Of a stretch of DNA of 43,394 nt, positions 11,545 to 15,790 are shown piece by piece (within the stretch, counting starts at the first letter, position 1; each line of letters opens with the position of its first letter). The DNA is taken from positions 1 to 43,394 of the forward strand of contig CAIJPI010000032.1 in NCBI GenBank assembly GCA_903822525.1, given 5' to 3'. This DNA is from an uncultured Bacteroidales bacterium. Its GTDB lineage: Bacteria > Bacteroidota > Bacteroidia > Bacteroidales > UBA4417. Below the pieces are notes generated by a model. It had not been told where the DNA came from. It ran no database searches and saw only the letters and a list, made by a program, of their open reading frames with translations. The translations under genes and the position numbers were made by a program.

Positions 11545-12777
11545 ATGTACACCAAATTTCAGGATCATCTCAACAAAGAACTTGCCGGAATAAAAGAAGC
11601 CGGACTATTTAAAAACGAACGCATCCTGATCTCACCTCAAGGTGCTGAAATTACGATCAGTTCTGGCGCCAGAGTGCTTAATTTCTGCGCCAACAACTAC
11701 CTCGGGCTTTCGAATAACCCTCAATTGATTGCTGCAGCAAAAGAAGCCCTCGATACACATGGCTACGGCATGTCGTCAGTACGTTTTATTTGCGGAACCG
11801 GCGATCTGCACAAGGAACTGGAAAAGAAAATTGCCGGATTCTTCGGTATGGAAGACACTATATTATACGCTGCCTGTTTCGACGCTAACGGAGGCGTTTT
11901 TGAGCCTCTTCTGGGTGAAGAAGATGCAATAATCAGTGACTCGCTTAACCATGCTTCTATCATTGATGGTGTTCGTTTATGCAAAGCAGTCCGTTACCGT
12001 TACAACAATGCTGATATGGACGACCTCGAAGTTCAGCTGCAGGCTGCCCAGGCACAGAGACACCGCTTGATTGTTACAGATGGTGTTTTTTCGATGGACG
12101 GCAACGTGGCACCTCTGGATAAAATCTATGAATTAGCCAATAAATACGATGCCATGATAATGGTGGATGAATCGCATTCGGCAGGTGTTGTTGGCAAAAC
12201 AGGCCGTGGCGTAACCGAACAATTCAACCTGAAAGGAAAAGTTGAAATTATCACCGGTACCTTGGGAAAAGCCTTCGGTGGAGCCATTGGCGGATTTACA
12301 ACCGGTAAGAAAGAAATTATTGATATGCTCCGTCAGCGTTCGCGTCCTTACCTGTTCAGCAATTCAATTCCTCCACTTGTTGCCGCTGCCGGTATCCGAA
12401 TGGTCGACATGATGAGCGAAACCAACGAGTTGCAGGATAAGTTGCATGAAAACACGGCATACTTTGTCGAAAAAATGCTGGCTGCCGGTTTCGATATCAA
12501 ACCTACCCAGAGCGCAATCTGTGCAGTAATGCTATACGATGCAAAACTAAGTCAGGAAATGGCAGCTAAACTGCTCGATGAAGGCATTTATGTTATTGGT
12601 TTCTATTACCCTGTTGTTCCAAAAGATAAGGCTCGCATACGTGTACAAATTTCGGCAGCACATGAACGCGAACATCTCGATAAATGTATTGCCGCTTTCA
12701 CAAAGGTTGGCAAAGAGTTAGGCGTTGTAAGAAGTAAAGAAGGCGGCTGCGGTTGCGGATGCAGTTGCGGAAACTAA
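11545..12777 (+). CDS. kbl: 2-amino-3-ketobutyrate coenzyme A ligase (glycine C-acetyltransferase)
   Basis: Pyridoxal-phosphate enzyme that splits 2-amino-3-ketobutyrate with CoA into glycine and acetyl-CoA, following the SDR-type threonine dehydrogenase encoded divergently. It is a class II alpha-oxoamine synthase with DESHSAG (208-214) and the Schiff-base lysine in GTLGKAFGG (K242). The first 397 residues or so match the normal family length. The last 11 residues form an unusual Gly/Cys tail, GGCGCGCSCGN, encoded by a run of near-identical 6-nt units ending at 12774; this could be a metal-binding or purely repetitive extension. A strong hairpin follows the gene. Confidence 0.93.
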   Translation: MYTKFQDHLNKELAGIKEAGLFKNERILISPQGAEITISSGARVLNFCANNYLGLSNNPQLIAAAKEALDTHGYGMSSVRFICGTGDLHKELEKKIAGFFGMEDTILYAACFDANGGVFEPLLGEEDAIISDSLNHASIIDGVRLCKAVRYRYNNADMDDLEVQLQAAQAQRHRLIVTDGVFSMDGNVAPLDKIYELANKYDAMIMVDESHSAGVVGKTGRGVTEQFNLKGKVEIITGTLGKAFGGAIGGFTTGKKEIIDMLRQRSRPYLFSNSIPPLVAAAGIRMVDMMSETNELQDKLHENTAYFVEKMLAAGFDIKPTQSAICAVMLYDAKLSQEMAAKLLDEGIYVIGFYYPVVPKDKARIRVQISAAHEREHLDKCIAAFTKVGKELGVVRSKEGGCGCGCSCGN

Positions 12778-12801: not shown

Positions 12802-12835
12802 AAGGCTGCTTTAAAGGCAGCCTTTTGCATTTTTT
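12802..12835. terminator. Intrinsic terminator between kbl and the ATPase gene
   Basis: AAGGCTGC (12802-12809) pairs perfectly with GCAGCCTT (12817-12824) across a 7-nt loop. A T-rich run to 12835 follows and overlaps the stop codon of the convergent ATPase gene. It suits termination of kbl on the plus strand; the A-rich side may also serve the other strand. Confidence 0.8.
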
Positions 12836-14018
12836 AGAATAACTCCATCGGATTAATCATTAAAAACTCTTCCCATGGCAAACCCTCTTTCCCTACCAAC
12901 ATAATTTTTGAATCGGGATAGAGTTTCCTGAACTGCACCATACCTGCTGTGCGCAAATTGTGACCGCTTTTTACTTCCAATGCTATGATTCGCCCTTTAT
13001 GCTCCAACACAAAGTCAACTTCATAATTACCATCACGCCAGTAAAATAAAGAATAATCCTGCGAATACGCATTATTTATCAGGTGTGCCCCAACAGCCGA
13101 TTCTACTACGCGTCCCCATTTTTCCCTATTCTCAGTGATCATCTGAAAATCATACGGATTCAACGCACTTGCAAAAGCCGTGTTATGAACCTGGAACTTC
13201 GGACTCGACGAACGTTTCCGGGCTTTATCGCGGGAGAATTTTTCAAGTCCGCCCAAAAGTCCTGCCGAATCAAGCAAATTCAGATAATGTGACAAAGTAG
13301 TTGTATTTCCAGCATCCAACAATTGGCCCAGAATTTTATTAAATGAGAGCATCTGCCCTGAATACGAACACCCTAAATCGAAAAGTCGTCTCATCAAAGC
13401 GGGCTTATCCACCCGGGACATCATAAGAATATCTTTCGAAATACTTGTTTCAGCCAGAGAGTTGTTAATATAATTTTTCCATCGCCTCTCATCATTTATC
13501 AGGCTGGCGGCTCCAGGAAATCCACCATACCAGGCATATTGATCTGCATTCCAGTCGAAAGCTTCTCGCATTTCGGACAGCGACCAATGACTAATATACA
13601 TGGTTTCGTACCTTCCGGCCAGCGATTCAGTCATCCCTGTCTGAAGCAACAACCTCGAAGAGCCCAGCAGAATAACATGAAGCTGAGTATTTTCACGGCT
13701 ATCGGCATCCCAAAGCTTCTTTACGATTTCACTCCAGTTTGGAATTTTTTGTATTTCATCGATAATCAAAACAAAAGAATCCGTTCCTGCCATTTTCAGT
13801 TTCTGCCGGGCGGTTTCCCATTGCAATTCAATCCATGAAATGCCTATGCCTGAAATATCATCGGCTGCAACATAACATCCCTGAATACCAGGTTCAGTAA
13901 GTAATTGCAGTACCATTGTAGTTTTACCTACCTGCCGCGGACCGGCAAGTACTTGCATAAACCTTCTTTTCTCTTTAATACGGCTTATAATTAACTGTAA
14001 TTGTGCACGTTTAATCAT
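12834..14018 (-). CDS. AAA (AAA_14) ATPase with DUF4143 domain
   Basis: Protein of 394 residues. The N-terminal AAA_14 module has Walker A GPRQVGKTT (26-34), Walker B VLIIDEIQ (83-90) and a sensor-like LLGSSRLLL. The C-terminal DUF4143 region has a D...ExK pattern (EVDFVLE...IALEVKSG, near 340-362), resembling a PD-(D/E)xK nuclease core. This family is widespread in bacteria and archaea, often in multiple copies that behave like mobile or defensive genes, and its function is not settled. The promoter is embedded in a palindromic operator array directly upstream, so autoregulation is likely. A -7 box at 14047-14054 supports the start at 14018. Confidence 0.9.
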   Translation of the reverse strand: MIKRAQLQLIISRIKEKRRFMQVLAGPRQVGKTTMVLQLLTEPGIQGCYVAADDISGIGISWIELQWETARQKLKMAGTDSFVLIIDEIQKIPNWSEIVKKLWDADSRENTQLHVILLGSSRLLLQTGMTESLAGRYETMYISHWSLSEMREAFDWNADQYAWYGGFPGAASLINDERRWKNYINNSLAETSISKDILMMSRVDKPALMRRLFDLGCSYSGQMLSFNKILGQLLDAGNTTTLSHYLNLLDSAGLLGGLEKFSRDKARKRSSSPKFQVHNTAFASALNPYDFQMITENREKWGRVVESAVGAHLINNAYSQDYSLFYWRDGNYEVDFVLEHKGRIIALEVKSGHNLRTAGMVQFRKLYPDSKIMLVGKEGLPWEEFLMINPMELF

Positions 14019-14030
14019 ATAACAATATTT

Positions 14031-14136
14031 TACTCAATATATAGTACAAATTTACTCAATATATTAAGTTTTTTTACCTGCTATTCAATTATATTTTACG
14101 CTGCTTGTTGAGTTTTTTTACTCAATATATTGAGTA
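14031..14136. promoter_or_regulatory. Phased palindromic operator array upstream of the DUF4143 ATPase
   Basis: Site O3 (14119-14136) is a perfect 18-bp palindrome, TACTCAATATATTGAGTA. O2 (14053-14070) matches it at 16 of 18 positions. O1 (14031-14046) shares its first 12 bases and ends in AGTA. A half-site TTGAGT at 14108-14113 falls at the equivalent of position 14097. All starts (14031, 14053, 14097, 14119) lie on a 22-bp register, about two helical turns. O1 covers the predicted transcription start and O2 touches the -7 box. Confidence 0.75.
14047..14054 (-). promoter_or_regulatory. Putative -7 box of the ATPase promoter
   Basis: Minus-strand TAAATTTG lies between operators O1 and O2. 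Transcription would start near 14041, inside O1, with a leader of about 20 nt. Confidence 0.55.
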
Positions 14137-14389: not shown

Positions 14390-15790
14390 ATGAAAATTAA
14401 ATTTATTGGCGCAGCGCGCGAAGTTACAGGCAGCAAACATCTCATTACAACAGCAGGCGGTAAAAAAATACTTCTCGATTGTGGCATGTTTCAGGGGAAA
14501 GGTATGGAAACCGATGGAATGAACCGCAACCTGATGTTCGTTCCGGCAGAGATAGATCACATAATACTTACCCATGCCCATATTGATCATTCGGGCTTGA
14601 TTCCCTATTTATACAGGCTTGGATTTCGCGGTTCTGTAATATGTACCAGCGCTACCCGCGACCTGTGCGCGATCATGCTTTCCGACAGCGGCCATATACA
14701 GGAAAATGACGTGAAATGGTTTAATAAACGACGTATACAAAAAGGGCTGACACCTGTAGAACCAATCTACACTGAGCTGGATGCCCGTGCATGTATGGAA
14801 TTGTTTATCAGCGTTGCTTACGACCGGAAATTTTATATCGATAGCAATACCAAAGTAAAATTCACCAATACAGGCCATATGCTGGGCAGCGGAACGGCCC
14901 TGCTCGAAATTACCGAAAACGGAAAAACCACCCGCATTGCTTATACCGGAGACATTGGTAGACCTGTAAACCGAATATTGAAATCACCGGAACCATTCCC
15001 CCAATGCGATTACCTGATAACAGAAGCCACTTATGGCAACAGGCTTCACCCTCATTTACAGGAAGCCGAAGGAGAACTTCTGCGTGTGATCCGCGAAACC
15101 TGTGTTGAAAAAGGCGGCAGAGTTATTATTCCCTCCTTTGCTATAGGGCGCACACAGGAAGTGATATACGCACTCAACACTTTTTTTAACGAAGGCTTGC
15201 TTCCAAAAGTGAATATTTACGTTGACAGTCCTCTGGCAGTGAATGCCACAGACATCTTCAGACTGCATACTGATATCCTTAATGCGGACGTTGCACATAC
15301 CATGCTCAACGACCCTGATCCCTTTGGTTTTAATTCATTGTATTATATTAAAAGCAGTGAAGAATCGAAAAAATTAAATACCCATACAAAACCCTGTGTT
15401 ATTATCTCCGCTTCGGGTATGATGGAGGCAGGACGTATAAAACATCACCTGGCCAATTCGATTGAAAACCCGAATAATACAATTCTTGCCATTGGATACT
15501 GTTCGCCGGTAACGCTGGGAGCCCGTATTTTAAACGGTGCTGAAGAAGTTTCAATTTTCGGTGTAAAGCACCCGGTAAAAGCTAAAATTGAACGGATAGA
15601 AGCATTCAGCGGACATGGCGACTACAGTGAAATGGCTGATTACCTTGCCTGTCAGGATGCTGCACAGGTTAAGAAAGTTTTTCTCGTTCATGGTGAATAT
15701 GAGGCACAATCATCGTATAAAAAAATCCTTGAAGCAAAGGGATTCCGCGATATTGAAATACCAACCGCCGGTGAAGAAACGGAACTTTAG
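14390..15790 (+). CDS. Beta-CASP metallo-beta-lactamase ribonuclease/exonuclease
   Basis: Protein of 466 residues in the Ysh1/CPSF73-like metallo-beta-lactamase family, expected to cut or trim RNA with two zinc ions. The metal motif HAHIDH is at residues 62-67 within THAHIDHSG, and further ligands are in NTGHMLGSG and YTGDIG. The beta-CASP domain is shown by PSFAIGRTQE, ISASGMMEAGR, FSGHGDY and the C-terminal VHGE histidine. KH domains of archaeal homologues are absent, as is normal in Bacteroidota versions. It stands alone between two intergenic regions with its own promoter; cytoplasmic. The RNA substrate is unknown. Confidence 0.92.
   Translation: MKIKFIGAAREVTGSKHLITTAGGKKILLDCGMFQGKGMETDGMNRNLMFVPAEIDHIILTHAHIDHSGLIPYLYRLGFRGSVICTSATRDLCAIMLSDSGHIQENDVKWFNKRRIQKGLTPVEPIYTELDARACMELFISVAYDRKFYIDSNTKVKFTNTGHMLGSGTALLEITENGKTTRIAYTGDIGRPVNRILKSPEPFPQCDYLITEATYGNRLHPHLQEAEGELLRVIRETCVEKGGRVIIPSFAIGRTQEVIYALNTFFNEGLLPKVNIYVDSPLAVNATDIFRLHTDILNADVAHTMLNDPDPFGFNSLYYIKSSEESKKLNTHTKPCVIISASGMMEAGRIKHHLANSIENPNNTILAIGYCSPVTLGARILNGAEEVSIFGVKHPVKAKIERIEAFSGHGDYSEMADYLACQDAAQVKKVFLVHGEYEAQSSYKKILEAKGFRDIEIPTAGEETEL

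Follow-up and report, generated by a model that had tools for sequence, protein, structure and literature searches.

An array of palindromic sites lies across the promoter of an AAA_14-DUF4143 ATPase gene in the window, the 43,394-nucleotide stretch of DNA from an uncultured Bacteroidales bacterium that was analysed here. The same type of site accompanies relatives of this ATPase in unrelated hosts and is also found, without the gene, on phages. Taken as a whole, the array is likely to be a private operator for cooperative autorepression, with the phage copies as possible decoys.

In the proposed mechanism, the PDC-S01/DUF4143 ATPase would bind its own promoter through a winged helix between its ATPase and nuclease domains. 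It would do so as a dimer or larger oligomer, with palindromes at intervals of exactly two helical turns occupied across the -7 box and transcription start, so that expression of the defence gene would stay low (cooperative autorepression). Each DUF4143 subfamily would possess its own operator sequence with two- or three-turn spacing, moving with the gene, and operator pairs on phages would serve as DNA decoys, diverting the defence protein or disturbing the control of the defence gene in some other way.

Palindromic sites at the ATPase promoter

The original prediction described four sites starting at 14031, 14053, 14097 and 14119 in multiples of 22 bp, one of them over the predicted transcription start and another at the -7 box. 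The sequence confirms this arrangement: the starts are separated by 22, 44 and 22 bp, with copy 1 over the predicted transcription start and copy 2 next to the -7 box. The sites form the window operator class, TACTCAN6TGAGTA palindromes in a 22-bp register across the DUF4143 ATPase promoter, as follows:

14031..14048 (.), operator copy 1, TACTCAATATATAGTACA, right half degenerate, over the predicted transcription start (sequence)
14047..14054 (-), promoter -7 box TAAATTTG, linker between copies 1 and 2 (sequence)
14053..14070 (.), operator copy 2, TACTCAATATATTAAGTT, 2 mismatches to the 18-mer, abutting the -7 box
14075..14092 (.), eroded register position, TACCTGCTATTCAATTAT, where the 22-bp array is intact in orthologues L024, L026 and L027
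14097..14114 (.), operator copy in register, TACGCTGCTTGTTGAGTT, right half-site TGAGTT kept
14119..14136 (.), perfect operator, TACTCAATATATTGAGTA (sequence, 18-mer match)

Because the linker of copies 1 and 2 forms the -7 box, array and core promoter are interwoven. This box, TAAATTTG, is of the Bacteroidota TAnnTTTG type. Orthologues from three congeneric genomes (L024, L026 and L027) have three to four copies with ≤4 mismatches, spaced by exactly 22 bp at the same place, and the register is therefore considered to be under selection. The same orthologues have further, more degenerate copies in register. Four to five copies are present in related genomes, and the degenerate copy adjoining the ATG (copy 1) is also kept in orthologues.

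Matches to the 18-mer with ≤3 mismatches numbered two in the window, against 0.02 expected from shuffles. Across the whole 4.1 Mb genome, at ≤2 mismatches, the 18-mer was found solely in the array at 14031-14136 and at a single site, apparently a chance match, within a coding frame. A dispersed AT-rich repeat unconnected with these ATPases, which had been named as the finding that would overturn the original prediction, is contradicted. The region is indeed AT-rich, but the probability that the array reflects chance or low-complexity repeats is negligible, since this is contradicted by all shuffles and controls and the operator occurs in GC-rich genomes such as those of Rokubacteria.

Domain structure of the ATPase

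The gene and its predicted domains are located as follows:

12834..14018 (-), AAA_14-DUF4143 ATPase, 394 aa, PADLOC PDC-S01 (Pfam 5e-23 and 5e-27; PDC-S01 model PDLC04791, E 3.5e-178)
13419..14018 (-), AAA ATPase domain, residues 1-200 (AlphaFold model, mean pLDDT 90; Pfam AAA_14)
13188..13403 (-), winged-helix domain, residues 206-277, proposed operator reader (secondary structure of the model)
13266-13304 (-), recognition helix, residues about 239-251, within the winged helix (model)
12837..13127 (-), PD-(D/E)xK nuclease-like domain, residues 298-394 (alignments A1 and A2; model)

The protein scores above the cut-offs for PADLOC PDC-S01 and for Pfam AAA_14 and DUF4143. PDC-S01 is a phage-defence candidate in which an ATPase is fused to a PD-(D/E)xK domain; it was ranked the fourth most common defence across prokaryotes, and validation is pending for most such candidates (PMC12988326). 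The window ATPase is regarded here as a candidate anti-phage single-gene system. Walker A and B are intact (GPRQVGKTT and IDE), and the nuclease motif residues E306, D335 and E348-x-K350 are conserved in alignments A1 and A2.

The AlphaFold model (mean pLDDT 90) was built from 83 sequences; a 12-sequence version was poor in the winged helix. Evidence for this domain also comes from the segment DAGNTTTLxxYLxLL, which is near-invariant in the operator-bearing subfamily. The closest solved folds (VIA-align, 261-262 residues) were 2qen (Z 16.1, 3.5 A, 261 residues) and 2fna (Z 15.3), while a sequence search of the PDB found no homologue of the whole protein. The DNA-binding fold expected of an operator-binding protein is thus present in the winged helix of the model and in the matches to structures with an AAA domain and a winged helix.

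Operator and ATPase across phyla

Relatives with 40-72% identity to the window ATPase were fetched from named genomes (80 sequences, of which 77 were scored), and an operator was called when at least 10 of the 12 half-site bases were present within about 160 bp upstream or just over the gene start. It was present in 52 of the 77 relatives, representing more than ten phyla, compared with one of 1352 control stretches, and the 22-bp spacing was found in 38 loci among the scored relatives. Their hosts belong to Bacteroidota, Verrucomicrobia, Nitrospirae, Chloroflexi, Acidobacteria, Rokubacteria, Krumholzibacteria, Eisenbacteria, Omnitrophota, Proteobacteria, Actinobacteria and Treponema, and the AT-rich pair is conspicuous in those that are GC-rich (Rokubacteria, Chloroflexi and Acidobacteria). 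The search upstream of other ATPase genes, suggested with the original prediction, thus associated the 18-mer palindrome with relatives of the ATPase, and the recurrence of the same half-sites and 22-bp register in many phyla supports the claim of operators on one face of the helix.

Two features expected of an autoregulated operator, namely palindromes over the core promoter and co-travel with the gene in unrelated hosts, were found. The site tracks the protein and not the host, and it is therefore very probably the autoregulatory operator of the ATPase itself. The ATPase is the factor common to all hosts and was therefore inferred to be the binder; its repression of its own gene is fairly probable. 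The original prediction had left the choice between the ATPase and a small regulator encoded elsewhere. The co-travel across phyla and the winged helix of the model favour the former. A small host regulator binding the array and controlling the ATPase would follow the usual pattern of many operons and is compatible with the sequence alone, but is very unlikely, as the operator tracks the ATPase across phyla that share no specific regulator, differs among paralogues in one genome and hardly occurs at other places in the genome.

Roughly one in four of the 77 relatives had no operator of the window class, and many of these show other repeats. In some relatives the half-sites were switched to TGTTCA, TACGCA or TTACCCG. 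A rearranged operator of the type TTACGCTATTGAGT-AAATTT-ACTCAATAGCGTAA, with the arms swapped about the centre, was observed in the ATPase relatives L246, L250 and L252.

Per-residue association with operator change placed positions 239, 244 and 253 of the recognition helix among the strongest, a result confounded by phylogeny. The winged helix did not follow operator change more closely than the other domains did (partial correlation 0.21 vs 0.43 for the AAA domain), and residue-level covariation between the operator and the winged helix is only suggestive.

Repeats at other DUF4143 promoters

The window's genome contains several other DUF4143 genes with upstream repeats of their own. Imperfect direct repeats at spacings of 22, 23, 32, 33, 44 or 46 bp were detected in 54 of 121 DUF4143 promoters taken from genomes of the same order, compared with six of 172 neighbouring genes (Fisher 2e-18); at least two of these six control matches are the ATPase array viewed from the divergent gene. 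Six off-phase spacings gave 4 vs 4 in the same promoter sets. The repeat sequence varies between paralogues, even in one genome, and is alike only among close relatives. The window array is an instance of a family-wide rule in which each paralogue has its own operator; the original prediction did not anticipate this, nor the membership of a candidate anti-phage family or the copies on phages. Five-copy arrays were also seen upstream of the DUF4143 genes at L131 and L164, with periods of 33 bp (TCGCATTTAACCCGAT) and 23 bp (GCCAACTTGCCGAACA).

Gain and loss of the ATPase unit

The ATPase gene is located between two flank genes:

11545..12777 (+), pyridoxal-phosphate acyltransferase (KBL-like) gene, which in genome G009 (L174) directly precedes the other flank gene
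14390..15790 (+), metallo-beta-lactamase-type gene, whose promoter is kept where the ATPase unit is absent

The ATPase and the array adjoin the same flank gene in seven genomes of the genus. G009 has the two flank genes side by side and lacks both ATPase and array at this position. Solo arrays without an intact ATPase were found in genomes lacking this ATPase, and at one locus (L071:1500-1600) an intact operator pair is followed by only the first codons of the ATPase gene, a truncated 5' remnant which, as read, shows that the array outlives the gene. Because the solo arrays sit in ATPase-less genomes, one of them with a remnant, they are therefore interpreted as scars rather than as a regulon.

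Operator pairs bracket the ATPase gene, one upstream and one immediately downstream, in L063 (1480-1520/2747-2787) and L072 (1500-1543/2734-2776), and likewise flank it in L055. On both sides in L072, the array reaches the stop codon of the neighbouring gene; an empty site was not found for this locus, the relatives either carrying the ATPase or differing too much. Such pairs on both sides of the gene, its variable presence at one locus in the genus, and the solo arrays and truncated remnant would be consistent with repeats that mark the termini of a single-gene mobile element, or its recombination sites (cf. Tn7 ends), the phage copies being scars of lost cargo. Arrays at both ends, as in Tn7-like elements, were however absent from the window locus and seen just in L063, L072 and L055. 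Downstream copies as a general mark of a mobile element were rejected, being rare and with no convincing case among the 77 relatives. No transposase was seen, with a single gene between the conserved flanks in the genus, the empty site of G009 has no array, the position over the promoter is constant, and the 52 phage contigs with a pair and no gene are poorly explained as scars. A mobile-element origin of the repeats is thus highly improbable.

Operator copies on phages

Exact palindrome pairs of the window class in the 22-bp register were detected in 14 IMG/VR contigs (eight with a stricter pattern), while a scrambled pattern of the same composition gave two and an off-register pattern none. 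A second operator class, GCCAAN4GGAAGT in a 23-bp register, belongs to the PDC-S01 ATPase encoded on contig C19 of the window's genome and to relatives of that protein. Its exact pair was present in 38 viral contigs, compared with none when the register was shifted by one base, and in 395 Bacteroidota genomes it occurred only at that ATPase's own promoter.

The phage contigs are metagenomic and form 16 unrelated clusters, five of the window class and 11 of the second class. At least 10 of the 16 contain viral hallmark genes, the remaining clusters being viral by IMG/VR label; in isolated phages no operator pairs were found. On the fetched stretches no DUF4143 ATPase gene lay beside the pairs of either class. 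The operators thus occur on phages in the correct register and without the defence gene, as expected of a decoy.

In one phage group the site lies between the small and large terminase genes (terS-terL) in 23 of 24 intact regions, with constant half-sites and varying spacer bases amid shuffled modules. These palindromic modules in the terS-terL intergenic regions of L302 and L334-L370 include GTCACN16GTGAC, GTAAC..GTTAC, GTCCG..CGGAC and TTGCATAAAATGCAA, and some are common to unrelated phages. They may serve as operators for additional defence or toxin-antitoxin systems. A fourth phage motif, TGTCACN16GTGACA, had no match in 395 genomes. When 126 DUF4143 promoters were compared in bulk with 16-mers from phage intergenic regions, the outcome did not differ from the controls, an effect of an oversized phage set with unassigned hosts.

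Independently, the phage copies indicate on evolutionary grounds that these ATPases are important to phages. That they have a decoy role is proposed tentatively. The main alternative for the phage part, in line with the DNA recognition sites suggested in the original prediction, is that the sites are DNA targets of the ATPase-nuclease on phage DNA, and that the promoter is freed of the ATPase by titration onto phage copies, inducing its expression and so sensing infection. The nuclease motif is conserved, the motif is really present on unrelated phages, and a site brought in by a phage, together with autoregulation, would suffice for a simple sensor of infection. However, target recognition predicts loss of the sites, whereas the phage half-sites are perfect, with varying spacers, in those 23 terS-terL regions; the host operator would also be cut, and the neighbouring motif in some phages is that of AbiE, for whose antitoxin no nuclease activity is known. 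We consider this alternative unlikely.

A phage motif at AbiE promoters

Near the operator pairs of three unrelated phage lineages a third motif was found, GTTCAY-N11-GTTCAYGNNNCRTGAAC-N11-RTGAAC. A blind search of 395 bacterial genomes found it in 18, with no match for a reversed control. In 13 of the 18 bacterial loci it adjoins an AbiEi_2-type antitoxin gene, and in nine loci it ends 0-3 bp before the antitoxin start codon. Autorepression by AbiE antitoxins, through inverted repeats at their operons, has been described (PMC7319586, PMC3985639). No AbiEi_2-type antitoxin is encoded on the viral contigs of this set.

The AbiE-type operator array was also observed twice in each of three genomes, 1.9-2.8 kb apart (G347:C16 39610/41492; G225:C37 210668/213491; G335:C3 73979/75873), and the paired arrays look as if they bracket the AbiE operon.

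Phages may carry cassettes of operator mimics for several host defence systems (the two PDC-S01 classes and AbiE), which would titrate regulators or effectors; we put this forward with some reserve. Against a decoy, derepression would be expected besides sequestration, and for AbiE there is no evident benefit to the phage. A phage intergenic motif led to AbiE promoters, suggesting that the non-coding regions of phages may list the defence regulators that they have met.

Comparison with known systems

PDC-S01 is reportedly among the commonest candidate defence genes, and each subfamily now has a proposed DNA ligand, so that binding, regulation and induction can be tested together with a defined ligand. 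If the decoy reading is true, it would represent DNA-level counter-defence by operator mimicry, requiring neither a protein nor an RNA product. In the accessible literature no report was found of operator mimicry as counter-defence, or of an operator or regulation of PDC-S01.

The window ATPase and the second-class ATPase are both members of PADLOC PDC-S01. A parallel to their proposed regulation is the AbiE type IV toxin-antitoxin system, in which the operon of a defence locus is repressed by its own DNA-binding protein acting on several inverted repeats (PMC7319586, PMC3985639), as would be the case here. Unlike AbiE, the window system is a single gene without a toxin partner, belongs to another protein family and has its spacing fixed at two or three helical turns.

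The order of an AAA domain followed by a winged helix is shared with the archaeal AAA+ ATPases PABY2304 (2qen) and SSO1545 (2fna), and with the Orc1/Cdc6 initiators. Orc1/Cdc6 proteins bind repeats at origins. The match to 2qen and 2fna (model residues 1-288 aligned, identity about 15%) stops before the C-terminal PD-(D/E)xK domain of the window protein.

Phage RNA mimics are also known, in which Racr anti-CRISPR RNAs and pseudo-ToxI repeats are copies of the repeat recognised by a defence protein. The phage sites described here differ from these in being intergenic DNA operators, of several systems side by side, and imply no RNA.
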